From: Comamonadaceae bacterium
GTDB lineage: Bacteria > Pseudomonadota > Gammaproteobacteria > Burkholderiales > Burkholderiaceae_C
NCBI GenBank assembly: GCA_947454955.1
Contig: CANGLW010000001.1
Span: forward strand, 62,001 to 126,000
Direction: 5' to 3'
Length of the DNA: 64,000 nucleotides
The translations under genes and the position numbers were made by a program. Below are positions 35,775 through 51,578 of this stretch, piece by piece (position 1 is the stretch's first letter; every line of letters begins with the position of its first letter). The notes beneath the pieces were generated by a model. It was given only the letters and a program-made list of their open reading frames with translations, did no database searches and was not told where the DNA came from.

Positions 35775-36548
35775 TTAGCGCATCACCAAGCCGCCATCCA
35801 CAGTGAGCACCTGGCCAGTCACCATCGCGCTCAAATCGGAGGCCAAGAACAGCACCGCACCAGCCACGTCTTGTGGCTGCGTCAAGCGGCGCATCGGGGT
35901 TTGGGCCATCAGGAGGTCTTTGACAGCTTCAGGGGTTTGACGGCTTGCATCGGTGGGGTATACCAAGCCGGGCGCCACGCAATTCACCCGCACGCCCAGT
36001 GGCCCCAGCTCTTGCGCGAGGTTGCGGCTCATGCCTTCCAGCGCCGCTTTGGCGGTGGTGTAGTCGTGGTAAGGCACGCTGGGGCGTTGCACCAAATCCG
36101 AGCTGATGTTGATGATGCTGCCCTGCCCGCGCGTGCGCATGGCCGGCAGCACCGCTTGGCACAAAGCAAAGCTGCTGCGCACCGCACCGTTGATTTGGGT
36201 TTGCATGTCGTCCCAACGCAGCTCAGCAAAGCTTTGGCGTTCTTCGGGGTTGAAGCGGTAAGGCGCAAAGGCGTTGTTCACCAGCACATCGATGCGCCCG
36301 GTTTCTTTGAGCACGTCTTGCACCATGGCATGCACCGCGGCCGCATCGCTGGCATCGGCTTGGTAAGCCCAGCCCCCGCCGCCTTGCTGGCAATCGGCCT
36401 CCACCTGGGCTGCGGCTTGTGCGTTGCGCAGGTAGTTCACCACCACCAAGGCACCGGCTTGCGCGAGACTGCGGGCAATCGCTGCGCCGATGCCGCGCCC
36501 CGCGCCCGTGACCAGGGCCACTCGGCCTTGCAGGTTGATGGTGTTCAT
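35775..36548 (-). CDS. SDR family NAD(P)-dependent oxidoreductase
   Basis: A 257-residue classical short-chain dehydrogenase, similar in pattern to FabG. The cofactor motif TGAGRGIG, NNAF in place of NNAG, the catalytic Ser in ISSD and the YTTAK pair (Tyr and Lys) are present. It is the last gene of the luxE-luxC-ABC operon and overlaps the binding-protein gene by four bases. It might reduce the aldehyde made by the LuxC-like enzyme to an alcohol, or act on the imported compound; the sequence does not decide. Confidence 0.88.
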   Translation of the reverse strand: MNTINLQGRVALVTGAGRGIGAAIARSLAQAGALVVVNYLRNAQAAAQVEADCQQGGGGWAYQADASDAAAVHAMVQDVLKETGRIDVLVNNAFAPYRFNPEERQSFAELRWDDMQTQINGAVRSSFALCQAVLPAMRTRGQGSIINISSDLVQRPSVPYHDYTTAKAALEGMSRNLAQELGPLGVRVNCVAPGLVYPTDASRQTPEAVKDLLMAQTPMRRLTQPQDVAGAVLFLASDLSAMVTGQVLTVDGGLVMR

Positions 36549-37531
36549 GGTTTGGGTGGGATCAGGTCTTGGCTCACCACATCGCTGACCTTGATGTCGC
36601 GCGAGATGAGGCCCAGTTGCTTGTAAGTGTCGGCCGCTTTTTGCAGCGAGGTCATGTCGAACCGGCCCAAGCCTTGTGCTTGGGTGATGGCTGAGACGCT
36701 TGAGGCATTGCGAAGCTTGATCACTTCTAAATTGATAGCAGCATCGGTCCCATCAATCGCGCGTTTGACCGCCAACTGCGCAGCTTCCTGGGGGTTGGTG
36801 ATCATCCACTGCGCGCTGTCGCGGTAAGCGGCCAAGAAGCGTTTGAGCAACTCTTTCTTGTGTTGGTAGGTCTCTTCGCGCACCACAAAGAAGTCGCTCG
36901 ACACATTGAGTTGCTGGCGCACCTCCATCACGTTCACATCTTCCAAGCCGCGTTGCTTGCCCACCAAGAGGCCCGTGTCGGTGGCCGCCGTGGCGTCCAC
37001 CTGGCCTTGCATGAGCGGCGCGAAATTCAACAAGCCAGTGACCACGATGGTGACATCCGACTCTTTCAAACCTGCTTGGTGCAGCATCACCAAGAGGTTT
37101 TGCCGCGTGCCACTGGCCAGGCTGTACACCCCGATTTTTTTACCCTTGAGGTCCGCAGGCTTGGTGATGTTGCTCTTCTTGAGTGACACCACATTGAACA
37201 CGTTTTGCGGGTAGATGTCATAGATGGCGCGCAGCTTCTCGCCTTTGTCCAGCGCGGCAAAAAACGAACCCGGATCGGTGAAGGCCACATCTGCCTGGCC
37301 CGAGAGCAAATTGCGCACAGCATCGCCACCGCCTGCGCCACTGAGGTAGTTCAGTTCGATGCCGCGTTGTTTGAAAAAACCTTTGTCGTCATCCACCAAG
37401 AGGTTGGTGATTTCGGTGATGGGCTTGCTCCAACCGGCGACCACAAATTTGTCGAGCTTGGGCTGGGCCACAGCGCCCAAGCAAAGCACGGCTGAGAGTG
37501 CCAAGGCAGATTTCAAAAACAGTCGTTTCAT
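36545..37531 (-). CDS. ABC transporter substrate-binding protein, NMT1/SsuA-like
   Basis: A 328-residue periplasmic binding protein with a signal peptide (about 1-22, ending GAVA). The fold is that of NMT1/THI5-like or SsuA-like proteins, with GFFKQRGIELNYL, GQADVAFTDPGSFF and DLKGKKIGVYSLASGT. Relatives bind sulfonates, nitrate, pyrimidine precursors of thiamine, or aromatic acids. The ligand here is unknown. It overlaps the permease gene upstream and the SDR gene downstream by four bases each. Confidence 0.88.
   Translation of the reverse strand: MKRLFLKSALALSAVLCLGAVAQPKLDKFVVAGWSKPITEITNLLVDDDKGFFKQRGIELNYLSGAGGGDAVRNLLSGQADVAFTDPGSFFAALDKGEKLRAIYDIYPQNVFNVVSLKKSNITKPADLKGKKIGVYSLASGTRQNLLVMLHQAGLKESDVTIVVTGLLNFAPLMQGQVDATAATDTGLLVGKQRGLEDVNVMEVRQQLNVSSDFFVVREETYQHKKELLKRFLAAYRDSAQWMITNPQEAAQLAVKRAIDGTDAAINLEVIKLRNASSVSAITQAQGLGRFDMTSLQKAADTYKQLGLISRDIKVSDVVSQDLIPPKP
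36723..36739 (-). repeat. Copy of dispersed 17-base motif
   Basis: Minus-strand GCTATCAATTTAGAAGT inside the substrate-binding protein gene, read as Ala-Ile-Asn-Leu-Glu-Val. It matches the mutL copy at 14 of 17 bases. Confidence 0.55.
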
Positions 37532-38277
37532 GGGTGAGGATGGTGTTGGAGCAGTTGTTGTTCAAGCAGCAAGGTGCAACCGTAAAGCAGCAAACCCAGG
37601 GCGGTGATGTTGATGAGGGTTGCGAACATCAACGCGGTGTCCATCATGCCCTGCGAGGCGATGATGACCGCGCCCAAACCTTGGTTGGCACCAATGAATT
37701 CACCCACCACCGCGCCCACCAGGGCCAGCACCACCGCCACACGCAGGCCCGCCAGGATGCCAGGCAAACCTGCAGGAATTTTCAAGCGCCACAGGGTTTG
37801 CCAACGGTTAGCGCCGAGCATGCGAAACAAATCCAGGCGCTGCGCATCCACCTGGGTGACTGCAGTGAGCGTGCTTTCCAGCAAAGGAAAAAAACAAATC
37901 AGCGCCACAATGACCACGGTAGAAGTCATGCCCAAACCAAACCACACCATGAACAAGGGTGCCAGTGCCAGCTTGGGCACCACCTGGCTGATGACCACAT
38001 AAGGCATGGCCAAGCGTTTGAGCCACGGCACTTCTGCCAAGATAAGACCGCCCCCTAGCCCGAGCACCGCACCCAGCGCCAAACCCAACACCAACGCTTG
38101 CACGGTCTGCCACAGATGGGGCGTGAAATACCCGGTTTGCCAACCGTGCCATAAGGCTTGAAGCACGCGCGCCGGATCGGGCAAGACCAGTTTTGACAAA
38201 CCCAAACCTGCACTCAAACCCTGCCAAAGCAACAAAGCAGCTATCAAAACCAGAGCATGTGAGATCCAGCGCTTCAT
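37528..38277 (-). CDS. ABC transporter permease, SsuC/NrtB-like
   Basis: A 249-residue membrane protein with about six helices. The ATPase-contact (EAA) loop is in MLGANRWQTLWRLKIPAGLP. I start at the ATG at 38277, which overlaps the ATPase stop by four bases; the frame to 38370 is read-through of that gene. It forms the channel of the importer encoded by the flanking genes. Confidence 0.9.
   Translation of the reverse strand: MKRWISHALVLIAALLLWQGLSAGLGLSKLVLPDPARVLQALWHGWQTGYFTPHLWQTVQALVLGLALGAVLGLGGGLILAEVPWLKRLAMPYVVISQVVPKLALAPLFMVWFGLGMTSTVVIVALICFFPLLESTLTAVTQVDAQRLDLFRMLGANRWQTLWRLKIPAGLPGILAGLRVAVVLALVGAVVGEFIGANQGLGAVIIASQGMMDTALMFATLINITALGLLLYGCTLLLEQQLLQHHPHP
38240..38256 (+). 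repeat. Copy of dispersed 17-base motif
   Basis: GCTATCAAAACCAGAGC inside the permease gene, on the strand opposite to the gene. Confidence 0.5.
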
Positions 38278-39068
38278 GGCTGCACCGCACTTTCTGTGGG
38301 TACGGCCACCCGGTCCATCGCGGCGCGCAAACCAGCAGCGTGCGCGCTGAAAGCTGCGCTGTAGCGCCAACCGGGCATGAGGCGCTGGTCTTCTTGGCCT
38401 TGCAATGTTTGGCGGTGCACCAGCTCACCTTGGTGCATGAGCAGCACCTCATCACCCAGCATCACCGCCTCGCTGATGTCATGGGTCACAAACAGCACCG
38501 CGGTTTGATGGTCGCCGCACATGCGCAGCACATCGTGTTGCAACTCTTCGCGGGTGATGGCATCGAGCGCGGCAAAGGGCTCGTCCATCAGCAACAAGGC
38601 CGGGCGCAACAACAAAGCCCGCGCGATGGCCACTCGACTTTGCTGCCCACCCGACAATTGCCAGGGTCGCTGACGTGTCAAGGCCGACAAGCCCAGCCGC
38701 GCGAGCAACGTCTGTGCGGCTTCCCGGTCGGCAGGTGTGACGCTGCGTTTGAGAGAGACCGGCAGCAGCACGTTGTCCATCACATCCAGCCAATCCAGCA
38801 AGGTGGGGCTTTGGAACACCAGGCCCACACGTGCGGGGTCAGGCGAGACAGGCGCACCTTGCACCAGCACGCGACCGGCTTGAGGTGACAGCAGCCCCGC
38901 TGCCAATTTGAGCAAGGTGGTTTTGCCGCACCCGCTGCGCCCCAACAAGCAGGTGATGTTGCCGGCTTGGACATGCAACGAGACGCCACGCACCACCGCC
39001 GGCCAACCGGGGAAGGTGTAGTGCACATTGTCCAGCGCAAGCACAGCGGTCATGGTTCCGTCTTGCAT
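38274..39068 (-). CDS. ABC transporter ATPase, SsuB/TauB-like
   Basis: A 264-residue ABC ATPase. Walker A GRSGCGKT, signature LSGGQQSRVAIARA, Walker B LLLMDEPFAALD and H-loop VTHD are intact. The first ATG (39068) overlaps the luxC-like stop by one base, favouring coupling; a second ATG at 39053 is possible. A C-terminal extension of about 50 residues follows the nucleotide-binding domain. Confidence 0.9.
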   Translation of the reverse strand: MQDGTMTAVLALDNVHYTFPGWPAVVRGVSLHVQAGNITCLLGRSGCGKTTLLKLAAGLLSPQAGRVLVQGAPVSPDPARVGLVFQSPTLLDWLDVMDNVLLPVSLKRSVTPADREAAQTLLARLGLSALTRQRPWQLSGGQQSRVAIARALLLRPALLLMDEPFAALDAITREELQHDVLRMCGDHQTAVLFVTHDISEAVMLGDEVLLMHQGELVHRQTLQGQEDQRLMPGWRYSAAFSAHAAGLRAAMDRVAVPTESAVQP

Positions 39069-40537
39069 CAGTCTGTGTAGGGCGCCAGGTCATCGGCTGC
39101 GCGCTCGGCACTGTGCTCGATGTCGACCATCTGAACCAAGTCCGCTAAGTTGAAGCGCCCATCGTGGTGCCAAGCTGCTTCGGGCAAGGTCATGCTGCCA
39201 ATCGCGCAAATGCGCGTCACGCCTGACAGGGCCAGCGCCTTGGAAAGCACCATCAATTCTTGCGGCGCAGTGGCCAAGCCCACGGTTTGCAGCAAATCGC
39301 GGTGCGGTGCGATCAAGGCCGGCACTTGCGAGAGATCATCCACCGCCACCACCAGCACCGTGCGGTTCAAGGCGCTGGGTGAAAAACTCAGCGCCTCGCT
39401 GTAGGCCACACCGAAGGGGTCGCTGGCATCCCCCAGCATCACCACCCCCTGCCCGGCCATGGCCGCGGTTTCTTGGGCAGAGCGCCAGTTGGCCAGGGCC
39501 TGACGCTCGCTCAAACTGAGTTCACGGCGCGGGTGCTGCTGTGACAGCGCACGGAGTTGCTGCTGCAAGTGGTGCGCAAAATCCAAGGGACTGCTGCGCC
39601 CACCACGCGCCACATAAAACACCTGGGGTGAGTAGCAGCCTTGCTGCTCGAAGCGCGCCACATCCAAAGCCGCCAGGCGAGCGACCTCATGCACACGGCG
39701 CGCATCTAAGCCTTCAGCACTCACCATGCCAAAACTCAGCTTGTGGCCGAAGGGCAAAAAGCGTGTGGTGATGGGCACCTGCGCGCGCAAAGCCGTTAAG
39801 GTTGGGTTGTCGCCATAGGCCATGAGCGCATCAGCCTGCGAGAAAACCGCACTTTCACGCGCAGTGTCGCCACCGGACCACCACACCACCGCCAAACCAT
39901 CGGCCAACTCAGGTGCTTCACGCGCGATCAGATGTGCAAAGAGCGAAGCCACCAAGGGCTCCGCGCTGGGCAACTTGCAGACATTGCCAGCTTTCACCAA
40001 CAGGCCCGCCACCAAACTCCACAAGGGCAAGCCAGGCACATTGCCCGCCCACACATGCATGAGCACTTGCGGCCCCACGGCCATGGACAAACCGCCTTTG
40101 GCGCGCGGCTCAAAGCGGTCCAACAAACTGGGGTTGCCCAGGTCTTCCACCACAAAGCGTTGCAACTGCGGCGTGCGAAAACTTTGCAAATAACGGGTCA
40201 GGCCCAGGCGCAACATCTCCTCGTCCAGCCCCGTGGTTTGGGCCAGCAAACGATTGAGCAACTGGCGCTGCGGGTTCTGGCCATCAAGCAGGCGGTGCAC
40301 CACGCTGTCGATGACTTGCATGAGCGCATGGACGGGCCACTGCTTGATGGTTTGGTGCGCGCGCACATGCTGGGCCAAAGCCACCAATTGCTCAGGCGTG
40401 GGTGCAGGCACTTCAATGTTAATAGCGCCCAGCTCAAGCACATGGCTATCCACCTGGCCTTTGAAGCCTGGCGGCACAAAGCCTGCGCGCACCTGTGTTG
40501 CATCCAAAGCAGAATGTTCCAGCGTAGGCATGTTCAT
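39068..40537 (-). CDS. LuxC-like acyl-CoA/acyl-protein reductase
   Basis: A 489-residue protein of the LuxC family, which reduces an activated acyl group to an aldehyde with NADPH through a cysteine thioester. The likely catalytic Cys301 lies in QQGCYSPQ, the position of the acyl-accepting Cys in LuxC. HVWAGNVPGLPLWSL (161-175) resembles the cofactor region. The ATG at 40537 overlaps the luxE-like stop by four bases. No luciferase genes are nearby, so this is a LuxC relative of non-luminous bacteria. It probably works with the LuxE-like neighbour; the acid it reduces is unknown. Confidence 0.87.
   Translation of the reverse strand: MNMPTLEHSALDATQVRAGFVPPGFKGQVDSHVLELGAINIEVPAPTPEQLVALAQHVRAHQTIKQWPVHALMQVIDSVVHRLLDGQNPQRQLLNRLLAQTTGLDEEMLRLGLTRYLQSFRTPQLQRFVVEDLGNPSLLDRFEPRAKGGLSMAVGPQVLMHVWAGNVPGLPLWSLVAGLLVKAGNVCKLPSAEPLVASLFAHLIAREAPELADGLAVVWWSGGDTARESAVFSQADALMAYGDNPTLTALRAQVPITTRFLPFGHKLSFGMVSAEGLDARRVHEVARLAALDVARFEQQGCYSPQVFYVARGGRSSPLDFAHHLQQQLRALSQQHPRRELSLSERQALANWRSAQETAAMAGQGVVMLGDASDPFGVAYSEALSFSPSALNRTVLVVAVDDLSQVPALIAPHRDLLQTVGLATAPQELMVLSKALALSGVTRICAIGSMTLPEAAWHHDGRFNLADLVQMVDIEHSAERAADDLAPYTD
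40410..40426 (-). repeat. Copy of dispersed 17-base motif
   Basis: Minus-strand sequence GCTATTAACATTGAAGT, inside the luxC-like gene where it encodes Ala-Ile-Asn-Ile-Glu-Val. It ends like the copy at 36723. Confidence 0.5.
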
Positions 40538-41664
40538 GGCCGGGCTGCTTTCAAAAAGTCTTCGACCGCCAGCGAACAGCCTTTGGCTTGGGTGCCCTGT
40601 GCGCGGCCCAGCAAATGAAAGCCGTCTGGCACCATCACACCCACGTCTTCGGTGAGGATGGTGCTGACCGAATTCACATTGGCCAGGTCGCAATGCACCA
40701 GCACACCTTCTTGCCCAGGGGGCACATCCTGGCCGGTGAGCGGGTCCACCACGCAGCTGCGAATCCAATGCGGGCCGAACTTCACCGCGGGCTGATGCGC
40801 ATTGCCTGCGTCGTACATCTGGGTGCTCAGTTCCGTCATGCCGTACATGTTGATGCAGTTGGCCGCATCCACCCCGAAGGTGGCGCCGAGTTGCGCGTAA
40901 AACGCCTGCACCGGAATCTCGCGCGACTGGCCCTTGAAGCCACCGGTGTCCAGAATGCGACTGCCTGCAGGCAAAGCAAAGCGCTGGGCTTTTTCACCCA
41001 ATGCGTCCATGGCATGCACCAGGCTGTAACTGGCCCCCAACACGGCCACCGGCTGACCAGCGTTTTGCGCGCGCTGCAAAAACGCGCACAAGCCGTCCAC
41101 ATCCAAGCCCTGCTCGTTCAAAAAATAAGCGCTGTCGTCGCTGCCGAAATGGGTTTTGGCCAGGGCCAGGTAATGCGCCAAAGACGAGTTGGGCATGGCC
41201 TGTTCGGTGGGAAACAGAATCGCCATGGGCAGGCGCGTCTGACTCTGCATGAACAGCTGCGCGAAGGCCTGGGTCATCGAGGCGTCGTACACCGCCAAGC
41301 TGGGGTGGTGGTGGCAGCCCCGCACCGCGCGGGTGGTGCCACTGGTCATGAACACCCGGTGGCCAGCCTCTGGCTGGATAGGCTCGCAGTTCAGGCTGAG
41401 CTCTTTGAACACATTGATGGGCACGGCCGGGATGTCGCGCCAGCTGCGTACCGTGCGACGGGTGCGGCCGCGCTGCTGACAGAACCTGGCAAAGGCGACG
41501 TTGTGCTCAAACTGGTGCGCAAACACAGCCAGGGCCAGGGTGTTGAACGCCTCGTCGCTCACCTGTGGTTGCGCGATGAAAGCCAAGACCTGAGCCATGA
41601 GCGCGCGCATGGGCTCGCTCAAAGAAGCTGCAGACAAATCTGATTGAAAGGTAGTGGAGCTCAT
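40534..41664 (-). CDS. LuxE-like acyl-protein synthetase
   Basis: A 376-residue member of the LuxE family, related to adenylate-forming enzymes. Visible motifs are FMTSGTT (ATP phosphate loop, near 106-112), ILDTGGFKGQSREI (LuxE hallmark), NMYGMTELS (A5-like) and GRAQGTQAKGCSLAVEDF (A8-like hinge). Known LuxE activates a fatty acid with ATP and passes it to LuxC. It is the first gene of a six-gene operon with luxC-like, ABC importer and SDR genes. It is divergent from nasT, with 198 bases between the starts. Confidence 0.87.
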   Translation of the reverse strand: MSSTTFQSDLSAASLSEPMRALMAQVLAFIAQPQVSDEAFNTLALAVFAHQFEHNVAFARFCQQRGRTRRTVRSWRDIPAVPINVFKELSLNCEPIQPEAGHRVFMTSGTTRAVRGCHHHPSLAVYDASMTQAFAQLFMQSQTRLPMAILFPTEQAMPNSSLAHYLALAKTHFGSDDSAYFLNEQGLDVDGLCAFLQRAQNAGQPVAVLGASYSLVHAMDALGEKAQRFALPAGSRILDTGGFKGQSREIPVQAFYAQLGATFGVDAANCINMYGMTELSTQMYDAGNAHQPAVKFGPHWIRSCVVDPLTGQDVPPGQEGVLVHCDLANVNSVSTILTEDVGVMVPDGFHLLGRAQGTQAKGCSLAVEDFLKAARP

Positions 41665-41862
41665 GCTTTCGGTGGGCGTGCTCCGAAAGATGCGCGGGCG
41701 ACAGAATGATCGCCAAGCTCTTCTTACGTCGGTATGATCCGATTCAAGTTCACGGGTTTGGTCTTACCATCTCAGCCGAACAAGCGTTCGCACCCCGGAG
41801 CATGCCCATTCTAGACTGCTTTTTTTCGCGGCTCAGGCGCGGTTCTTGCATGATTTTTCTTG
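41665..41862. promoter_or_regulatory. Divergent control region between luxE-like operon and nasT
   Basis: This 198-base gap must hold the promoters of two divergent units. A TATGAT box on the plus strand at 41733-41738 could serve nasT, but no good -35 partner is seen. I find no clear operator, riboswitch or terminator here. Confidence 0.4.
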
Positions 41863-42510
41863 ATGAATGAAGCCCTACGCATCGTGGTGATCGCTCCCGA
41901 TTTGGTGGTGAGCGACCCCCAGGACGACCTGGCCTTGCAACAGGCCGAGCGTTCACGCAGCCTGCGCATCGGGCTGCTGGAGAGCGGCTTCAACCTGGTG
42001 GCCAGCCTGCCGGCCGATGTTTTCCTGACCGAGCGCCTGGCCCAGCTGCAGCCCGACATGATCATTGTGGACGCTGAGAGCGAGGCGCGCGACGCGCTCG
42101 AGCATGTGGTGATGGCCACCCGTGACGAGCGCCGCCCCATCGTCATGTTCACCAACGACAGCGATACCAGCCATGTGAAAGACGCGGTAGCCGCCGGGGT
42201 GACGGCCTACATCGTGGCGGGCTTGTCGTCCGAGCGCATCCGCCCGATTCTGGATGTGGCCATGGCCCGCTTTCAGCACGAACAGGCCCTGCGCCAGGAG
42301 CTCAACACCGCCTTGGCCGAGCGCGACGAGCTGAGTGCGGCCATGAACGACCGCCGCACCATCGACCGCGCCAAAAACCTGCTGATGGACAAACAGGGCT
42401 TGAGCGAAGAAGCCGCTTACGCCCGCCTGCGCAAAACCGCGATGGACAAGAACCTCAAAATCGTGGAAGTGGCCCAGCGCATCCTGGACGTGGCGGACCT
42501 GTTGGGCTGA
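41863..42510 (+). CDS. nasT: ANTAR-domain antiterminator NasT
   Basis: A 215-residue two-domain protein. The N-terminal receiver-like domain (about 5-130) has Asp70 in IIVDAES but Ala119 where true receivers have a conserved Lys, so it is probably not phosphorylated. The C-terminal ANTAR domain (about 150-213) has the typical RAKNLLMDKQGLSEEAAYARL. ANTAR proteins bind paired hexaloop RNA hairpins and prevent termination; NasT does this for nitrate assimilation genes. A matching hairpin and terminator lie directly downstream. Its usual partner, the nitrate sensor NasS, is not in this window. Confidence 0.9.
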   Translation: MNEALRIVVIAPDLVVSDPQDDLALQQAERSRSLRIGLLESGFNLVASLPADVFLTERLAQLQPDMIIVDAESEARDALEHVVMATRDERRPIVMFTNDSDTSHVKDAVAAGVTAYIVAGLSSERIRPILDVAMARFQHEQALRQELNTALAERDELSAAMNDRRTIDRAKNLLMDKQGLSEEAAYARLRKTAMDKNLKIVEVAQRILDVADLLG

Positions 42511-42804: not shown

Positions 42805-42862
42805 GGCGTCCCCACAGCTTGCACCCATGGTGCTTGGCTTGTGCGGACGCCTTTTTGTTTTT
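42805..42862 (+). terminator. Leader terminator (attenuator) before nrtA
   Basis: GGCGTCC (42805-42811) pairs with GGACGCC (42845-42851), with further inner pairing CACA/TGTG and GCACC/GGTGC around a CAT loop. TTTTTGTTTTT follows at 42852-42862. It lies between the sigma-54 promoter and the nrtA start at 42881, so it must be passed for operon expression; NasT binding to the upstream hairpin is the likely switch. Confidence 0.82.
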
Positions 42863-42880
42863 CACTTCAGGAGTTGTGCC

Positions 42881-44125
42881 ATGACCGATCTGCTCAAAAC
42901 CAATCTCAGCCGCCGCGCTGTTTTGCAAGCCGCCAGCGTGGGCGCTGTGGGCATCAGCCCTGCCCTGCGCGCTGCTGTTTACGCTGCCGGCTCGGACGCA
43001 CCCGAGAAAACCGAAGTGAAGATCGGCTTCATTCCCCTGACCGATTGCGCCAGCGTGGTCATGGCCTCGGTGCTGGGCATCGACCAAAAGTACGGCGTGA
43101 AAATCATCCCCACCAAAGAAGCCAGCTGGGCCGGTGTGCGTGACAAACTGGTCAACGGTGAACTGGACTTCGCCCATGTGCTCTACGGCCTGGTGTACGG
43201 CGTGCAAATGGGCATCGGTGGCCCCAAGAAAGACATGGCAGTGCTGGCCACCCTCAACCACAATGGCCAGGCCATCACCCTGTCTAAAAAGCTGGCCGAC
43301 AAAGGCGCGGTCGATGCGGGCAGCCTGGCCAAGCTCATGGCCACCGAAAAGCGTGAGTACACCTTCGCTCAGACCTTCCCCACCGGCACCCACGCCATGT
43401 GGCTGTATTACTGGCTGGCCTCGGCCGGTGTGAACCCGCTCAAAGACGCCAAGATCATCACCGTGCCCCCACCCCAGATGGTGGCCAACATGCGCGTGGG
43501 CAACATGGACGGTTACTGCGTGGGCGAGCCCTGGGGCCACCGCGCCATCATCGACGGTATTGGCATCACCGCCACCACCACCCAAGACATCTGGAAAGAC
43601 CACCCTGAAAAAGTGCTGGGCACCACCTCGGAGTTCGTCAAGAAATACCCCAACACCGCGCGCGCCGTGACCGCGGCGATTTTGGAAGCCGGCAAGTGGA
43701 TCGATGCGGGCCTGTCCAACAAAAACAAGATGGCCGAAACCGTGGCTGACAAAGCCTATGTGAACACCAGCGTGGACGCGATCAACCAGCGCATTTTGGG
43801 CCGCTACCAAAACGGCCTGGGCAAAACCTGGGACGACCCCAACCACATGAAGTTCTACAACGAAGGCGCGGTGAACTTCCCCTACCTGTCCGATGGCATG
43901 TGGTTCCTCACACAGCACAAGCGTTGGGGCTTGCTCAAAGACCACCCCGACTACCTGAATGTGGCCAAGCAGGTTAACCAGATCGAGATCTACAAACAAG
44001 CTGCGGCCATGACCAAGACCCCGGTGCCCAAAGACGTGATGCGCTCCAGCAAGCTGATGGACGGCGTGGTGTGGGACGGCAAAGACCCGGCCAAGTACGC
44101 CGACTCATTCAAGATCAAAGCCTAA
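42881..44125 (+). CDS. nrtA: Nitrate ABC transporter substrate-binding protein
   Basis: A 414-residue NrtA/NasF-type protein. The N terminus has a twin-arginine-like signal (LSRRAVLQAASVGAVG, about 8-23), and the mature part begins with VKIGFIPLTDCASVVMA, typical of nitrate/bicarbonate binding proteins. FPTGTHAMWLYYWLASAG and GYCVGEPWGHRAI are further family marks. GGAG lies upstream of the ATG at 42881. It is the first gene of the nitrate operon, behind a sigma-54 promoter and attenuator. Confidence 0.92.
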   Translation: MTDLLKTNLSRRAVLQAASVGAVGISPALRAAVYAAGSDAPEKTEVKIGFIPLTDCASVVMASVLGIDQKYGVKIIPTKEASWAGVRDKLVNGELDFAHVLYGLVYGVQMGIGGPKKDMAVLATLNHNGQAITLSKKLADKGAVDAGSLAKLMATEKREYTFAQTFPTGTHAMWLYYWLASAGVNPLKDAKIITVPPPQMVANMRVGNMDGYCVGEPWGHRAIIDGIGITATTTQDIWKDHPEKVLGTTSEFVKKYPNTARAVTAAILEAGKWIDAGLSNKNKMAETVADKAYVNTSVDAINQRILGRYQNGLGKTWDDPNHMKFYNEGAVNFPYLSDGMWFLTQHKRWGLLKDHPDYLNVAKQVNQIEIYKQAAAMTKTPVPKDVMRSSKLMDGVVWDGKDPAKYADSFKIKA

Positions 44126-44134
44126 GGAGCCACC

Positions 44135-45079
44135 ATGGTCAGTGCCGTGTTTCATGACAGTGTGGCGCTCAACACGCCCGCTCCCCCGGCTAGCGCCGGC
44201 TCTGCCAAGCCCGTGCTCAAGGTGATCGAAGGCGCTGACCCAGCCAAGCGCCCGAACGCCTCCCCCGAACCGGTTGTAGAGGCGCGTGTGCCTTACGACT
44301 GGCGCGAGTTGTGGCTCAAGGTCTTGCCACCCGTCATGGGCCTGGCCTTGTTGGTGGGCATTTGGGCTTTGGTGTCTATCACCAGCGGCAGCGCCATACC
44401 CACGCCAGCACAAACGCTGGAACAAGCCATCACCATCTTCAGCGACCCCTTCTACAGCAAAGGCCCCAACGACCAGGGCGTGGGCTGGAATGTGTTGAGC
44501 TCGCTCAAGCGCGTGGCCATGGGCTTTGGCCTGGCCGCGGTGGTGGGCATCCCTGCGGGCTTCATGATCGGGCGCTTCACGTTTTTGAGCCGGATGTTCA
44601 ACCCGCTCATCAGCCTGCTGCGACCGGTCTCGCCGCTGGCTTGGTTACCGATTGGCTTGCTGGTGTTCAAAGGCGCGAACCCTGCTGCGATCTGGACGAT
44701 TTTCATCTGCTCCATCTGGCCGATGATCATCAACACCGCGGTGGGCGTGCAACGCGTGCCGCAGGACTACATGAACGTGGCGCGTGTGCTCAACCTGAGT
44801 GAGTGGAAGATCGTCACCAAGATCCTGTTTCCTTCGGTGCTGCCTTACATGCTCACCGGCGTGCGTTTGGCCGTGGGCACCGCCTGGCTGGTGATTGTGG
44901 CTGCAGAGATGCTGACCGGCGGCGTGGGCATCGGCTTTTGGGTGTGGGACGAGTGGAACAACCTCAATGTGCGCAACATCATCATCGCGATTTTTGTGAT
45001 TGGCATCGTTGGCTTGTTGCTGGAGATGGCGCTCATCAAACTCGCCACCGCCTTCACCTTTGAAGAAGTCAAGAACTGA
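44135..45079 (+). CDS. nrtB: Nitrate ABC transporter permease
   Basis: A 314-residue permease with about six helices after a hydrophilic, Pro/Ala-rich N-terminal segment of about 50 residues. FNPLISLLRPVSPLAWLPIGLLVF and the EAA-type loop ARVLNLSEWKIVTKILFPSVLP identify NrtB. AAGGAG precedes the ATG nine bases after nrtA. No NrtC-type ATPase fused to a binding domain is present. Confidence 0.93.
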   Translation: MVSAVFHDSVALNTPAPPASAGSAKPVLKVIEGADPAKRPNASPEPVVEARVPYDWRELWLKVLPPVMGLALLVGIWALVSITSGSAIPTPAQTLEQAITIFSDPFYSKGPNDQGVGWNVLSSLKRVAMGFGLAAVVGIPAGFMIGRFTFLSRMFNPLISLLRPVSPLAWLPIGLLVFKGANPAAIWTIFICSIWPMIINTAVGVQRVPQDYMNVARVLNLSEWKIVTKILFPSVLPYMLTGVRLAVGTAWLVIVAAEMLTGGVGIGFWVWDEWNNLNVRNIIIAIFVIGIVGLLLEMALIKLATAFTFEEVKN

Positions 45080-45091
45080 AAGGGCAACCCC

Positions 45092-45913
45092 ATGGACAAG
45101 TACATCGACATCCAAAACGTGGGCCAGGTTTTCAAAACCAAAAAGGGACCTTTCACCGCGCTGCGCGACATCAACCTCACCGTAGCCAAAGGCGAGTTTG
45201 TGGCCCTCATTGGCCACTCGGGTTGCGGCAAGTCCACCTTGCTCAACCTGATTGCCGGCTTGACCTTGCCCACCGACGGCACGCTCTTGTGCGCTAACCG
45301 CGAAATTGCCGGCCCTGGACCAGATCGCGGCATGGTGTTCCAGAACCATTCGCTCTTGCCCTGGCTCACTTGTTTTGAAAATATTTACCTGGGTGTGGAA
45401 CGTGTGTTTGGCCCGGGCAGCAAAAGCACTGGCGCCACAGCTGAAACCAAAGCGCAACTCAAAGCACGCACCGAAGCCGCGTTGGAGATGGTGGGCCTGA
45501 GCCACGCCACCCACAAGCGCCCTGGCGAAATTTCAGGCGGCATGAAACAGCGTGTGGGCATTGCCCGCGCCCTGGCCATGGAGCCCAAAGTCTTGTTGAT
45601 GGACGAGCCCTTCGGCGCCTTGGATGCATTGACCCGCGCCAAGTTGCAAGACGAGTTGCTCGACATCGTGGCACGCACCCAAAGCACGGTGGTCATGGTG
45701 ACCCACGATGTGGACGAAGCCGTGCTGTTGAGCGACCGCATTGTGATGATGACCAACGGCCCGGCCGCCACCATCGGTGAGGTGCTGAGCGTGAACCTGC
45801 CACGCCCGCGCAACCGCGTGGAACTGGCCGAAAGCACCGAGTACCTGCATTACCGCAAAGCGGTGATTGATTTCCTCTACACCCGACAAGGGCACGTGGA
45901 AAAAGCAGCTTGA
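45092..45913 (+). CDS. nrtD: Nitrate ABC transporter ATPase
   Basis: A 273-residue ABC ATPase of the NrtD/NasD type. Walker A GHSGCGKST, signature ISGGMKQRVGIARA, Walker B VLLMDEPFGALDA and THDVDEAV are intact. An insertion of about 20 residues (around 107-125, Gly/Thr/Lys-rich) precedes the helical domain. It energises uptake by NrtAB and lies 12 bases after nrtB. Confidence 0.92.
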   Translation: MDKYIDIQNVGQVFKTKKGPFTALRDINLTVAKGEFVALIGHSGCGKSTLLNLIAGLTLPTDGTLLCANREIAGPGPDRGMVFQNHSLLPWLTCFENIYLGVERVFGPGSKSTGATAETKAQLKARTEAALEMVGLSHATHKRPGEISGGMKQRVGIARALAMEPKVLLMDEPFGALDALTRAKLQDELLDIVARTQSTVVMVTHDVDEAVLLSDRIVMMTNGPAATIGEVLSVNLPRPRNRVELAESTEYLHYRKAVIDFLYTRQGHVEKAA

Positions 45914-45926
45914 TCAGGAGATTGAC

Positions 45927-48416
45927 ATGGATATGAGCGTCAACCCGAAACAAAAAATGAAGTTGGTGATGATCGGCAACGGCATGGCCGGTGTGCGCAC
46001 CCTTGAAGAGCTGCTCAAGATCGCGCCGGACCTGTACGAGATCACCGTGTTTGGCGCCGAGCCACACCCCAACTACAACCGCATCTTGCTCAGCCCGGTG
46101 CTGGCAGGCGAACAAACCTTAGAGCAAATCGTGCTCAACGACTGGGCCTGGTACAGCGACAACGGCATCACCCTGCATGCAGGCTGGACGGTCACCGCGG
46201 TGGACCGCATCAAGCGTGAGGTGCATGCCATCAACGCGCAAGGCCAAGCCAAAGTTTGTGCCTATGACCGCCTGATCATGGCCACCGGTTCGAACCCCTT
46301 CATGTTGCCGGTGCCTGGCAAAGACCTGCCGGGTGTCTTGGCTTACCGAGACATTGCCGACACCCAGGCCATGATCGATGCGGCGGCCACCTACCAGCAC
46401 GCGGTGGTGATTGGTGGCGGCCTCTTAGGCTTGGAAGCGGCCAATGGTTTGATGAAGCGCGGCATGCAAGTCACCGTGGTGCATGTGGCACCGTGGTTGA
46501 TGGAACGCCAGCTCGACGATGTGGCGGGCCAATTGCTGCAAAAGTCTTTGGAAGAGCGCGGCATGCAGTTCATGATCGGCGCGCAAACCGACCAATTGCT
46601 GCCCAGTGTCGATGGCTCGCGTGTGGGCTCGGTGGTGTTCAAAGACGGCACGCAAGTGAAAGCTGATTTGGTGGTGATGGCCGTGGGCATCCGCCCCAAC
46701 ACGGCCCTGGCCGAGCGCATGAAGCTGCATGTGAACCGCGGCATTGTGGTGAGTGACACCCTGCAAACCGTGACCGACGCACGCATTTACGCAGTGGGCG
46801 AGTGCGCGGCGCACCGCGGCATTGCCTATGGCTTGGTGGCCCCCTTGTTCGAGCAAGGCAAGGTACTGGCCAACCACTTGGCTGAGTTTGGCATTGCGCG
46901 CTACACCGGCTCGCTGACCTCCACCAAACTCAAGGTGACTGGCATCGATTTATTCAGCGCAGGCGACTTCATGGGCGCCGCCTCAGGCAATCCTGAAGAC
47001 GCCGATGCCGAAGAGATTGTGATGAGCGACCCGTTTGGTGGCGTGTACAAAAAACTCGTCATCAAAAACGACAAACTCGTGGGCGCTTGCCTGTACGGCG
47101 ACACAGTAGACGGCAGCTGGTATTTCAAGTTGCTGCGCGACGGCCGATCAGTCAAAGACATCCGCGACAAGCTGATGTTCGGTGAGTCCAACATCGGCGA
47201 TGTGGGCCATGAAGGCCACAGCAAAGCCGCCAGCATGAAAGACGAGGACGAGGTCTGCGGGTGCAACGGCGTGAACAAAGGCAGCATCTGCAAAGCCATC
47301 AAAGACAAAGGCCTCTTCACCTTGGATGAAGTGCGCAAGCACACCAAGGCCAGCGCGTCGTGCGGCTCGTGCACTGGTTTGGTGGAACAAATTTTGATGT
47401 TCACCGCCGGTGGCGATTATTCGGCCACGCCCAAAACCAAAGCCATGTGCGGCTGCACCGACCACGGCCACCAGGCGGTCCGTGAGGCGATTCGCGCCAA
47501 CAAGCTGCTCACGATTTCGGACGTCTACAAGTTCATGGCATGGCGCACACCCAATGGTTGCGCCAGCTGCCGCCCTGCGGTGAACTACTACCTGATTTCC
47601 ACCTGGCCCAAAGAAGCCAAGGATGACCCGCAAAGCCGCTTCATCAACGAACGCAGCCACGCCAACATCCAAAAAGACGGCACTTACTCGGTCATCCCGC
47701 GCATGTGGGGTGGTGAGACCACAGCCTCTGAATTACGCCGCATTGCCGACGCGGTGGACAAGTACAAGATCCCCACCGTGAAGGTCACGGGTGGTCAGCG
47801 CATCGACTTGCTGGGCGTGAAAAAAGAAGACCTGCAAGCGGTCTGGAACGACATCGGCATGCCCAGCGGCCACGCCTATGCCAAGGCGCTGCGCACGGTG
47901 AAAACCTGCGTGGGCTCTGAGTGGTGCCGCATGGGCACGCAAGACAGCACCCAGATGGGCAAAGACCTGGAGCGTGCGATGTGGCGCATGTACGCGCCGC
48001 ACAAGGTGAAGTTCGCGGTCTCCGGCTGCCCGCGCAATTGCGCCGAGGCGGGCATCAAAGACGTGGGCATCATCGGCGTGGACTCAGGCTGGGAGATGTA
48101 CATCGCCGGTAACGGCGGCATCAAAACCGAGGTGGCGCATTTCTTCACCAAGCTCAAAACCGCAGAAGAAGTGCTGGAGTACACCGGCGCGTTTTGCGAG
48201 CTTTACCGCCAGGAAGGTTGGTACCTCGAGCGCACGGTGCACTATGTCAACCGTGTCGGTTTGGACCATGTGAAAAAACGCATTCTGGAAGACCACGAAG
48301 GCCGCAAAGCTTTGTGGGCGCAGTTGCAGTTCGCGCTGGACGGCGAACCTGACCCCTGGTTTGAAGGCAACAAAGCTAACGTGGATGCGCGTCAGTTTGA
48401 CAAGATCGAGGTGTGA
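45927..48416 (+). CDS. nirB: Assimilatory nitrite reductase (NADH) large subunit
   Basis: An 829-residue NirB, reducing nitrite to ammonium with NADH. Order of parts: FAD/NADH domain (LVMIGNGMAG near the start; VVIGGGLLGLEAANGL), two BFD-like [2Fe-2S] segments (CGCNGVNKGSICKAI with CGSC, and CGC with CASC), then the siroheme/[4Fe-4S] domain with Cys661, Cys667, Cys701 and Cys705. AGGAG precedes the ATG at 45927. The open frame to 45867 is read-through of nrtD. It ends one base before nirD. Confidence 0.95.
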   Translation: MDMSVNPKQKMKLVMIGNGMAGVRTLEELLKIAPDLYEITVFGAEPHPNYNRILLSPVLAGEQTLEQIVLNDWAWYSDNGITLHAGWTVTAVDRIKREVHAINAQGQAKVCAYDRLIMATGSNPFMLPVPGKDLPGVLAYRDIADTQAMIDAAATYQHAVVIGGGLLGLEAANGLMKRGMQVTVVHVAPWLMERQLDDVAGQLLQKSLEERGMQFMIGAQTDQLLPSVDGSRVGSVVFKDGTQVKADLVVMAVGIRPNTALAERMKLHVNRGIVVSDTLQTVTDARIYAVGECAAHRGIAYGLVAPLFEQGKVLANHLAEFGIARYTGSLTSTKLKVTGIDLFSAGDFMGAASGNPEDADAEEIVMSDPFGGVYKKLVIKNDKLVGACLYGDTVDGSWYFKLLRDGRSVKDIRDKLMFGESNIGDVGHEGHSKAASMKDEDEVCGCNGVNKGSICKAIKDKGLFTLDEVRKHTKASASCGSCTGLVEQILMFTAGGDYSATPKTKAMCGCTDHGHQAVREAIRANKLLTISDVYKFMAWRTPNGCASCRPAVNYYLISTWPKEAKDDPQSRFINERSHANIQKDGTYSVIPRMWGGETTASELRRIADAVDKYKIPTVKVTGGQRIDLLGVKKEDLQAVWNDIGMPSGHAYAKALRTVKTCVGSEWCRMGTQDSTQMGKDLERAMWRMYAPHKVKFAVSGCPRNCAEAGIKDVGIIGVDSGWEMYIAGNGGIKTEVAHFFTKLKTAEEVLEYTGAFCELYRQEGWYLERTVHYVNRVGLDHVKKRILEDHEGRKALWAQLQFALDGEPDPWFEGNKANVDARQFDKIEV

Positions 48417-48417
48417 C

Positions 48418-48795
48418 ATGTCTGAGTGGACAAAAATTTGCGATGTCAACGACATCCCCGTGCTGGGCTCGCGCCGTGTGGCGCGCAGCACAGGCATGGA
48501 TGTGGCGGTGTTTCGAAATGACGCGAACGACGTGTTTGCCCTGCTTGACCGCTGCCCGCACAAAGGCGGTCCGCTGAGCCAAGGCATTGTGTTTGGCACT
48601 AGCGTGGCCTGCCCGCTGCACAACTGGACCATCGGCCTGGGAAGTGGTTGCGCCAAAGCGCCTGACGAAGGCTGCACCCCGAAGTTCAGCGTGAAGGTGG
48701 ACAACAACACCGTGTTTTTGAACACCGAAGAACTCGCCACCCACGCCACGGACCTCAAGCCCCCAGTGGCGGGACCTGCTTTGAAAGCGGCATGA
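48418..48795 (+). CDS. nirD: Nitrite reductase small subunit with Rieske motif
   Basis: A 125-residue NirD. It keeps a complete Rieske [2Fe-2S] motif: Cys46-x-His48, 16 residues, then Cys65-x2-His68 (CPHKGG and CPLHNW). E. coli NirD lacks these ligands, so this small subunit probably does carry a cluster. The ATG at 48418 follows the nirB stop directly, and the gene overlaps nasA by ATGA at 48792-48795. Confidence 0.93.
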   Translation: MSEWTKICDVNDIPVLGSRRVARSTGMDVAVFRNDANDVFALLDRCPHKGGPLSQGIVFGTSVACPLHNWTIGLGSGCAKAPDEGCTPKFSVKVDNNTVFLNTEELATHATDLKPPVAGPALKAA

Positions 48796-51578
48796 CCCCA
48801 GTGCAAGAAACACGCTCCACCTGCCCTTACTGCGGTGTGGGTTGCGGTGTGATCATTCAAACGCAAGGCGCGCAGATCACCGGCGTGCGCGGCGACCCGG
48901 ATCACCCGGCCAATTTCGGACGCTTGTGCTCCAAGGGCTCTACCCTGCATTTGACCGCCAGCCCCGAGGTGCGCGCACAAACCCGCTTGCTGCAACCCAT
49001 GATGCGCATGGCACGTGGCCAAGCCCCGCAAGGGGTGAGCTGGGACACCGCGCTGAACCATGCTGCCGACCAACTCGCCGACATCATCCGCACCCACGGA
49101 CCTGATGCAGTGGGCTTTTATGTTTCGGGCCAACTGCTCACCGAAGACTATTACGTGTTCAACAAGCTGGTCAAAGGCCAGCTTGGCACCAACAACATCG
49201 ACACCAACTCGCGCCTGTGCATGAGCAGTGCGGTGGCGGGCTACAAACTCACCCTGGGCGCTGATGCGCCACCCACCTGCTACGACGATGTGAACCATGC
49301 CGGTACGGTGTTCATCGTGGGCTCGAACACCGCTTACGCGCACCCGGTTTTGTTCAGGCGCTTGGAGGACGCCAAGCGCGCCAACCCGCAGATGAAGGTG
49401 ATCTTCTGCGACCCTCGCCGCACCGACACCGCCGAGTTGGCAGACCTGTACCTGCCCATCCAACCCGGCACCGATGTCGCGCTGTTCAATGGCCTGCTGC
49501 ACTTGATGCTTTGGGAAGGTTGGGTGGACACCAGCTACATCGCCGCACACAGCGAAGGGTTCGATGCCCTCAAAGCCACAGTGCGCGACTACACGCCTGC
49601 ATTTGTGTCGCAAACCTGCGGCATCACCACCGACGATTTGCTAACCGCAGCCCAATGGTTCGCGCAAGGCCCCACGCTGAGTTTGTATTGCCAGGGCCTG
49701 AACCAATCCACCAGTGGCACTGCGAAAAACGCGGCGCTCATCAACCTGCATTTGGCCACCGGGCAGATCGGCAAACCAGGTGCCGGGCCGTTTTCACTCA
49801 CCGGCCAGCCCAACGCCATGGGTGGCCGTGAAGTGGGCGGCTTGGCCAATTTACTCAGCGCGCATCGCGACCTGGCCAACCCCGAACACCGCGCCGAAGT
49901 GGCTAAGCTGTGGGGCGTGCCAGATGTCCCTGAGAAGCCCGGCAAAACCGCGATTGAGATGTTCCAAGCCGCGGCCGATGGCGAGATCAAAGCGCTGTGG
50001 ATTGCCTGCACCAACCCCGCGCAAAGCCTGCCCGACCAAGCCACCGTGCGCCGCGCCTTGGAGCGCGCCGAGTTGGTGGTGGTGCAAGAAGCCTTTGCCA
50101 CCACTGCCACTTGCGACTGGGCCGATGTGCTCTTGCCCGCCACCACCTGGGGCGAGAAAGACGGCACCGTCACCAACTCCGAGCGTTGCATCTCCCGCGT
50201 GCGACCGGCTGTACCTGCGCCTGGCGACACCCGCCACGATTGGCAAATTGTTTTAGACCTCGCCACCAAACTGCAAGAGCGAGGCATCGGCCAAAAAATG
50301 AATTGGGGTCAGACCCCAATTCATCCTGAAGCGATTTGGAACGAGCACCGCGAGTCCACCCGCGGGCGCGACCTGGACATCACCGGTTTGAGTTACGCCC
50401 TGCTGGAGCAGTCACCCCAGCAGTGGCCCTACCCACAGAACGGCCAGCCCAAAACGCGTTTGTACGAAGACGGTGTGTTTCCCACACCCTCGGGCAAGGC
50501 GCGCTTTGCCAACACGGTTTACAAGCCGGTAGCCGAACCTCGCGAATCGCGTTACCCGTTTTCACTGACCACGGGACGGCTGCGCGACCATTGGCACGGC
50601 ATGAGCCGCACCGGGACGCTGGCGCGTTTGTTCGGCCACGTGGCTGAGCCCGTCATTCAAGTGAACCCGCAAGACCTGGCGCGCAAAGGCTGGCGCGATG
50701 GCGATTTGGTGCACGTCACCAGCAAGCGCGGCGCGATTGTGGTGCCGGTGCAAGCCAGTGCCGAGGTGGGCATGAGCCAGGCCTTCATGGCCATGCACTG
50801 GGGCGCGGAATATCTGAGCGGACTAAGCCGTACTGGCGAGCCGCTGGCAGGGGTGAATGCCCTCACCACCTCGGCGTACTGCCCCAGCTCTAAACAGCCC
50901 GAACTGAAACACGCGGCGGTGAAAATTCTCAAGGCCGAGCTGCCTTGGACGCTCTTGGCCATGGCCTGGTTACCCGCCGATGAGGTCTTGCAAGCGCAAC
51001 GTGCCTTGCGCGCGCTCATGCCCAGTTTCTCGTTTGCCACCTGCGTGCCTTTTGGGCGTGAGCGACAAGGCGTGTTGTTTCGCGCGGCACACTTTGAAGC
51101 GCCATCTTCAGAGCTCATCGCTCAAATTGAGGTGTTGCTGGGTTTGAACACGCCCCATGTATTGCGCTACGCTGACCGCAAGGCGGGTCAGCAACGCTGC
51201 ATGAAGGTCTCTCGCGAAGGCCAGACCGTGAAGCTTGAAGGCTTTTTGCTGGCCGGTGACACGCAGTCGCAAGCCTGGATCACCACCTTGCTGCAAGACG
51301 AGTTGCCCGCGCAAAGCTATGGCCGCTTGCTTTTGCTGCCCGGAGCCAAAGCGCCGGTGGCGGTGCAAAGCAAAGGCAAGGCGGTGTGCACCTGCTTGAA
51401 CGTGAGCCAGACGGCCATTGAGACGCACCTGCAAACCTTGCACGAGCAACCCGGCTTGCCGCCCAGCCCGCTGCAGTGCTTGCAGTCGCTCAAAGACACC
51501 CTGCAATGCGGCACCAACTGCGGCTCTTGCGTGCCCGAGTTGCAAAAAATCATCCGTGCGGTGAGTGTGCCGGCCTGA
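48792..51578 (+). CDS. nasA: Assimilatory nitrate reductase catalytic subunit with C-terminal [2Fe-2S] domain
   Basis: A 928-residue molybdopterin nitrate reductase. The N-terminal [4Fe-4S] cluster is held by Cys11, Cys14, Cys18 and Cys46. The bis-MGD domains follow (LCMSSAVAGYKLTLGAD, GQPNAMGGREVGG). The last ~65 residues form a BFD-like [2Fe-2S] domain (Cys866, Cys868, Cys910, Cys913), as in Klebsiella NasA. No NasC-type NADH reductase subunit is nearby, so the electron donor is open. A perfect 27-base palindrome lies inside the gene at 50298-50324 and is translated as residues 503-511. Confidence 0.94.
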   Translation: MTPVQETRSTCPYCGVGCGVIIQTQGAQITGVRGDPDHPANFGRLCSKGSTLHLTASPEVRAQTRLLQPMMRMARGQAPQGVSWDTALNHAADQLADIIRTHGPDAVGFYVSGQLLTEDYYVFNKLVKGQLGTNNIDTNSRLCMSSAVAGYKLTLGADAPPTCYDDVNHAGTVFIVGSNTAYAHPVLFRRLEDAKRANPQMKVIFCDPRRTDTAELADLYLPIQPGTDVALFNGLLHLMLWEGWVDTSYIAAHSEGFDALKATVRDYTPAFVSQTCGITTDDLLTAAQWFAQGPTLSLYCQGLNQSTSGTAKNAALINLHLATGQIGKPGAGPFSLTGQPNAMGGREVGGLANLLSAHRDLANPEHRAEVAKLWGVPDVPEKPGKTAIEMFQAAADGEIKALWIACTNPAQSLPDQATVRRALERAELVVVQEAFATTATCDWADVLLPATTWGEKDGTVTNSERCISRVRPAVPAPGDTRHDWQIVLDLATKLQERGIGQKMNWGQTPIHPEAIWNEHRESTRGRDLDITGLSYALLEQSPQQWPYPQNGQPKTRLYEDGVFPTPSGKARFANTVYKPVAEPRESRYPFSLTTGRLRDHWHGMSRTGTLARLFGHVAEPVIQVNPQDLARKGWRDGDLVHVTSKRGAIVVPVQASAEVGMSQAFMAMHWGAEYLSGLSRTGEPLAGVNALTTSAYCPSSKQPELKHAAVKILKAELPWTLLAMAWLPADEVLQAQRALRALMPSFSFATCVPFGRERQGVLFRAAHFEAPSSELIAQIEVLLGLNTPHVLRYADRKAGQQRCMKVSREGQTVKLEGFLLAGDTQSQAWITTLLQDELPAQSYGRLLLLPGAKAPVAVQSKGKAVCTCLNVSQTAIETHLQTLHEQPGLPPSPLQCLQSLKDTLQCGTNCGSCVPELQKIIRAVSVPA
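50298..50324. repeat. REP-like perfect palindrome inside nasA
   Basis: ATGAATTGGGGTC and GACCCCAATTCAT form a perfect 13-base inverted repeat around one A. It sits in frame in nasA and encodes Met-Asn-Trp-Gly-Gln-Thr-Pro-Ile-His. Its GGGGTC/GACCCC core resembles repetitive palindromes common in betaproteobacterial genomes, usually found between genes. Confidence 0.75.

Follow-up and report, generated by a model that had tools for sequence, protein, structure and literature searches.

A TPP riboswitch heads a luxE-luxC operon proposed to salvage the pyrimidine half of vitamin B1 in a Comamonadaceae bacterium

A thiamine pyrophosphate (TPP) riboswitch stands at the head of a six-gene operon in the genome of a Comamonadaceae bacterium (GenBank assembly GCA_947454955.1), and we propose that under riboswitch control the operon salvages the pyrimidine half of vitamin B1 by importing an acid and reducing it to the hydroxymethylpyrimidine HMP. 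The stretch of DNA that we analyzed, called the window here, comprises 64,000 nucleotides of contig CANGLW010000001.1 (positions 62,001 to 126,000), and the operon occupies positions 35775-41664 of its minus strand. The genes encode, in order, a LuxE-like synthetase, a LuxC-like reductase, the ATPase and the permease of an ATP-binding cassette (ABC) transporter, a periplasmic binding protein, and an oxidoreductase of the short-chain dehydrogenase/reductase (SDR) family. We put the probability of this salvage route at roughly two in three. The case is strong for the pyrimidine as the product and weaker for the exact acid, which may be 4-amino-2-methylpyrimidine-5-carboxylate, and the direction of the reactions is what we infer from the genes and their control. 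We place the operon in vitamin B1 salvage, and on the pyrimidine side of it, because of the riboswitch, the thi genes found next to related operons, and the pattern of thiC and thiG in the genomes that carry it.

The riboswitch and the operon

The TPP aptamer (RF00059) was detected by cmscan at positions 41807-41704 with a score of 57.7 bits, which passes the gathering score of 54.3 required for membership (E-value 1e-8). It ends 40 bases upstream of the luxE start, suggesting control of the operon by vitamin B1. This element had been overlooked in the first-pass annotation of the window. No second TPP riboswitch was found when we searched the whole assembly (2.78 Mb, 94.8% complete).

All six open reading frames (ORFs) start with ATG and have no internal stops, and their products all score above the Pfam cut-offs (LuxE, LuxC, ABC ATPase, binding-protein-dependent permease, NMT1 and SDR). 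From luxE to the SDR gene, the junctions overlap by 4, 1, 4, 4 and 4 bases, so the six genes with overlaps of one or four bases that the first-pass annotation described are real and intact.

Conservation of the operon and its riboswitch

The first-pass annotation had counted a gene order found in no other genome as a refutation of its reading; the order does recur, in both Pseudomonadota and Bacillota. We collected 24 loci from the genome_contigs collection, and all six genes are present in order in 19 of them; two of the remaining loci are cut by contig ends and three are without the full set. Upstream of luxE, 22 of the 24 loci have a TPP riboswitch, which scores over the gathering score in 15 and below it in seven (33.6-50.8 bits). 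For the low-scoring matches, the riboswitch and LuxE positions in genomes G001-G024 were paired by coordinates. The loci counted as misses, L032 and L033, had no TPP riboswitch even at a lax threshold. They come from Binatia and Verrucomicrobiales metagenome-assembled genomes (MAGs), have the most distant LuxE proteins (43 and 35% identity), and have LuxC-like matches and no matching ABC genes, so they are perhaps other acid reductases.

Plasmids carry the genes as well. Across a collection of 72,556 plasmid records, LuxE matched in 27 records and LuxC in 27, with equal counts for each organism. Nine plasmid regions fall evenly into three arrangements: the six-gene order (Azospirillum L003 and L004, Priestia L005), luxE-luxC-SDR alone (Pantoea L002 and L010, Pseudomonas L009), and luxE-luxC-SDR after an NCS2-type permease (Niallia L006, Lactiplantibacillus L007, Levilactobacillus L008). 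A TPP riboswitch heads all nine, eight of them over the gathering score and the Priestia copy, at 49.0 bits, below it. Both Pantoea copies examined retain the riboswitch, and neither has an ABC importer of this type next to it. In the Pseudomonas silvicola plasmid (L009, 8001-11314), luxE, luxC and the SDR gene are each frame-split and unannotated, either through decay or through sequencing error. The lactobacilli plasmids are only 10 and 21 kb long and hold a TPP riboswitch, the NCS2 permease, luxE, luxC and the SDR gene (L007, 1390-6321; L008, 2947-7878), and because such small plasmids carry the set, the pathway may have spread on plasmids.

In the family to which the window belongs, a sample of 200 genomes yielded 17 with LuxE. 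Each of these carries a TPP riboswitch upstream of luxE and on its strand; 11 of the riboswitches pass the gathering score and six fall below it (48.6-54.2 bits). The riboswitch lies directly before luxE in 16 genomes, and in the other, G111, thiD stands between them. A larger sample of 397 family genomes, which takes in these 17, has LuxE in 39 (36/388 at the quality threshold), and the family riboswitch search covered 17 of the 39. Loci L037-L053 were fetched with flanks of about 1.5 kb, and the six-gene order was not counted for these.

Linkage to thiamine genes in relatives

When we searched the fetched stretches with the Thi proteins of the window's own genome, thiD was found in 8 of the 24 genome_contigs loci. 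Five of these, L013, L014, L015, L016 and L034, have thiO, thiS and thiG as well, right behind the SDR gene; the other thiD-linked loci are L020, Metabacillus L025 and Desulfosporosinus L029. G111 has thiD between the riboswitch and luxE, with a 4-base overlap of thiD and luxE. Among the 39 family genomes with LuxE, thiG is no more than 10 kb from luxE in eight, one of which (G262) is apparently the genome of L013. A TPP riboswitch plus linkage to thi genes is one mark of a thiamine-precursor salvage operon, and both are found here, the linkage in relatives and not among the scanned neighbors of the operon in the window.

The Niallia megaplasmid (L006, 5787-11379) has two tandem TPP riboswitches, thiW, the NCS2 permease, luxE, luxC and the SDR gene. 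We take ThiW to be a thiazole importer, which would leave the pyrimidine for the rest of the set, and the Niallia set possibly supplies both halves of thiamine.

The first-pass annotation had read the operon as a pathway of uptake and reduction, or of detoxification, and had left substrate and purpose undecided. Its outline of acid import, an aldehyde, conversion by the SDR and no light emission fits what we found, and the LuxE, LuxC and SDR families are broad. Nevertheless, with a TPP riboswitch in nearly all the relatives examined and linkage to thiD, thiO, thiS, thiG and thiW, a non-vitamin substrate is quite improbable, and the evidence places the operon in vitamin B1 salvage instead of detoxification.

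The pattern of thiC and thiG

Bacteria make HMP de novo with the product of thiC. We found no thiC in the window's own genome, and thiD, thiO, thiS, thiG and thiE are together on another contig. The ThiD and ThiS proteins score above their NCBIfam cut-offs, while ThiO (247.8 vs 250.8 bits) and ThiE (140 vs 145.1) fall just under theirs and are above the Pfam family cut-offs. A similar picture is seen in the 24 named genomes with LuxE: thiC is absent in 15, of which 12 retain a full-length ThiG, and every genome with thiC also has ThiG. ThiD is over its cut-off in 23 of 25 genomes.

Within the sample of 200 family genomes, thiC is present in 130 and ThiG in 135. Those without thiC keep ThiG in 4/4 cases if they have LuxE and in 3/66 if they do not (p 3.8e-5, with relatedness not taken into account). 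Likewise, thiC is absent in 11 of the 39 LuxE genomes of the larger sample, and ThiG is present in all 39. That thiC is dispensable and ThiG retained in the LuxE hosts of the family points to the operon as the supplier of the pyrimidine. The named and family counts overlap, given that G003/G262, G010/G225 and G008/G141 are apparently the same genomes by coordinates. Over the 200 genomes, both thiC and ThiG are absent in 63, thiC alone in seven and ThiG alone in two. The three that keep ThiG without LuxE or thiC (G025, G051, G151) may hold another source of pyrimidine.

The same counts bear on which half of thiamine is made. If the imported compound were a thiazole acid such as 4-methylthiazole-5-acetate, reduced to hydroxyethylthiazole, then TPP control and acid-to-alcohol chemistry would be equally expected, and PMC12637900 names cHET, a thiazole carboxylic acid, among the precursors that can be imported. 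Hosts relieved of thiazole synthesis would not be expected to keep ThiG without exception in the family while lacking thiC in 11 of 39 genomes, nor to show no case of thiC without ThiG among the named genomes. The gene found beside the operon in eight loci and in G111, thiD, encodes the pyrimidine kinase, and the Niallia set has its presumed thiazole importer already, all of which makes a thiazole substrate unlikely. It is similarly unlikely that thiamine acetic acid, reportedly described as a rat metabolite by Amos and Neal in 1970, is reduced back to whole thiamine. Such a route fits the three MAGs that are without thiC and full-length ThiG; however, it would free its hosts from both branches of synthesis, yet ThiG is kept in 39/39 family genomes, and thiD shares the operon in G111 and is over its cut-off in nearly all the genomes checked.

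Several observations weigh against pyrimidine salvage as we propose it. Loss of thiC is not enriched in genomes with LuxE, since thiC is kept in 13/17 of these and in 117/183 other family genomes (p 0.43), and the operon therefore does not simply replace thiC. We rejected simple replacement as a general rule on this count and on the 28/39 LuxE genomes of the larger sample that keep thiC. The comparison of thiC and thiG is uncorrected for shared ancestry, and the 11 genomes without thiC in the larger sample include two with contamination above 5% (G225, G326). The three MAGs mentioned above (G018, G019, G021) are possibly incomplete, and ThiD is missing from G018 and only a fragment in G021. 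The neighbors of the operon that we scanned in the window include no thi gene. Similarity of the binding protein to THI5 and ThiY is only distant, and the names of its best matches in the PDB give no ligand. Finally, we found nothing relevant on 4-amino-2-methylpyrimidine-5-carboxylate in the open-access literature.

The enzymes and the importer

In luminescent bacteria, LuxE converts the acid to an acyl adenylate and from there to a thioester, which LuxC reduces to an aldehyde. The LuxE-like protein of the operon matches chain E of the LuxC-LuxE fatty acid reductase complex (PDB 7xc6) with an E-value of 1.2e-14 and with the KGCSL motif aligned. Its Cys363, near the C-terminus, aligns with the cysteine of that chain and does not vary among 31 aligned sequences, so it is probably the residue that carries the acyl group, the role which we take the C-terminal cysteine of LuxE to have. 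The LuxC-like protein matches chain A (E-value 4.6e-16), and Cys301, which the first-pass annotation had picked out as the likely catalytic residue, aligns with the cysteine there and is invariant in 28 aligned LuxC sequences. Given that the proteins are homologous and both catalytic cysteines align, the chemistry of acid activation and reduction is likely shared with the 7xc6 complex.

The operon differs from that system in having a TPP riboswitch, its own ABC importer or NCS2 permease, and its own SDR; LuxD is not among its six genes. Both proteins are also far under the cut-offs of the NCBIfam luminescence equivalogs and failed them: the LuxE-like protein has 58.2 bits against 550 (NF052244, long-chain fatty acid) and the LuxC-like protein 85.3 against 750 (NF052251). 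A supply of fatty aldehyde as in bioluminescence, for which the same protein families and the same two aligned cysteines speak, is therefore extremely unlikely, considering also the riboswitch and the lack of a luciferase among the scanned neighbors. The first-pass annotation had called the region free of luciferase; this holds for the neighboring ORFs that were put through Pfam, and luxAB were not searched for genome-wide.

Tyr163 and Lys167 of the SDR are invariant in 15 aligned sequences, and its step is probably the conversion of the aldehyde to the alcohol. Despite the very large size of the SDR family, the SDR seems to serve this pathway specifically, as does the binding protein, because their matches in the plasmid collection are all in records that bear LuxE (25 records for the SDR at an E-value of 1e-60 and 10 for the binding protein at 1e-25).

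The PDB matches of the binding protein include THI5 and ThiY (3ix1), which binds the formylaminopyrimidine FAMP; ThiY was matched by profile with an E-value of 7.8e-9. Across phyla, the binding proteins are 61-83% identical to the copy in the window, which suggests one fixed ligand. In the three loci where NCS2 permeases replace the ABC importer (Niallia, Lactiplantibacillus and Levilactobacillus), the replacement also fits a pyrimidine ring, though the best model for these permeases is a xanthine permease.

The alignments comprised 31 of the 50 available LuxE copies, 28 LuxC proteins, 21 binding proteins and 15 SDRs. Near-identical and close copies were excluded, together with the LuxE of L024, whose frame as taken has an early stop, the broken copy in L009, the distant loci L032 and L033, and any family locus matched on the minus strand.

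The proposed pathway and known thiamine salvage

In the pathway that we propose, low TPP would lead the riboswitch to permit expression of the operon, and the binding protein, permease and ATPase would import a pyrimidine carboxylic acid. The simplest substrate would be 4-amino-2-methylpyrimidine-5-carboxylate, because it is the acid form of HMP, the alcohol that ThiD requires. LuxE would activate the acid with ATP and bind it through a thioester at Cys363, LuxC would take the acyl group onto Cys301 and reduce it to the aldehyde, and the SDR would reduce the aldehyde to HMP. ThiD and ThiE could then join HMP to the thiazole made with ThiO, ThiS and ThiG. We infer that supply is more likely than breakdown, since a reduction in this direction spends ATP under the control of a TPP riboswitch.

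Pyrimidine import by ThiXYZ, with ThiY as the binding protein, and salvage by TenA and YlmB are established. Our operon resembles that system in having a TPP-controlled ABC importer with a binding protein of the NMT1/THI5 type, and its product would feed ThiD. In contrast, TenA and YlmB act by deamination or hydrolysis, whereas we propose ATP-dependent reduction of an acid, and ThiY and the binding protein here are only distantly alike. The ThiC pathway is likewise a TPP-controlled supply of the pyrimidine half; it differs in that our operon has no radical rearrangement and uses an imported precursor, and the two coexist in 28 of the 39 LuxE family genomes. ThiXYZ is named in the main text of a 2013 survey of TPP regulons (PMC3766115), which sorts their targets into thiamin biosynthesis and transport. 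A 2025 study describes Limnohabitans strains without thiC that have transporters of the ThiV, ThiY or CytX type, and its main text does not mention LuxE, LuxC or acyl-CoA reductase (PMC12637900). Salvage of thiamine precursors is thus known, and we could not find a description of an acid-reduction route of the LuxE/LuxC type in the open-access literature, seen mostly as titles and abstract openings, where the reductive route is apparently undescribed.

A broader reading, to which we give even odds, is that the vitamin B1 pyrimidine circulates in an unrecognized acid form that serves as a nutrient, and that unrelated bacteria reduce this acid to HMP with a repurposed luminescence-type acid reductase under a TPP riboswitch, which lets some of them live without ThiC. 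The bacteria concerned would be Burkholderiales, Azospirillum, Bacillaceae, Desulfosporosinus, Pantoea and, on small plasmids, lactobacilli. Salvage by acid reduction would itself mean that one more B1-related nutrient is worth looking for, suggest how strains without thiC get their pyrimidine, and give LuxE and LuxC a second biological role. It would also correct annotations such as "long-chain fatty acid--CoA ligase" and "bioluminescence" that are found on these genes.

The leader and the surroundings of the operon

The features of the operon are listed in Table 1. Between the aptamer and luxE, RNA folding gives a candidate hairpin (41690-41684 with 41672-41666) that adjoins the ATG of luxE and is by itself unremarkable (z -1.17). 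An alternative pairing of 41807-41796 with 41685-41674 is better than in 199 of 200 shuffles in the window. Among 23 relatives in which we tested this long-range pairing, it reached the 5% level in Azospirillum L003 alone (9/200). Since the pairing is weak in relatives, we rejected a conserved expression platform and keep it as a local guess: the leader is a possible translational expression platform through which expression may respond to TPP. Two Bacillota leaders resemble terminators when judged by eye.

Table 1. Features of the operon and its leader, with positions in the window.
Feature	Position	Strand	Details
luxE-like acyl-protein synthetase	40534..41664	-	376 amino acids; Pfam LuxE PF04443, 74.3 bits vs cut-off 24.9
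luxC-like acyl-thioester reductase	39068..40537	-	489 amino acids; Pfam PF05893, 274.7 bits vs cut-off 21
ABC transporter ATPase	38274..39068	-	264 amino acids; Pfam ABC_tran
ABC transporter permease	37528..38277	-	249 amino acids; Pfam BPD_transp_1
NMT1/THI5-like periplasmic binding protein	36545..37531	-	328 amino acids; Pfam NMT1 PF09084, 171.8 bits vs cut-off 20.5
SDR oxidoreductase	35775..36548	-	257 amino acids; Pfam adh_short_C2; Tyr163/Lys167
TPP riboswitch aptamer RF00059	41704..41807	-	operon leader; cmscan
Leader between aptamer and luxE start	41665..41703	-	possible translational expression platform; RNA folding

The divergent neighbor of the operon, at 41860-42510 on the plus strand, encodes a protein with an ANTAR domain. 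Beside it, on the same strand, is a probable nitrate assimilation cluster (42827-51578) with an NMT1_2 binding protein, ABC genes of the NtrB and NtrCD types, a nitrite reductase and a molybdopterin oxidoreductase.

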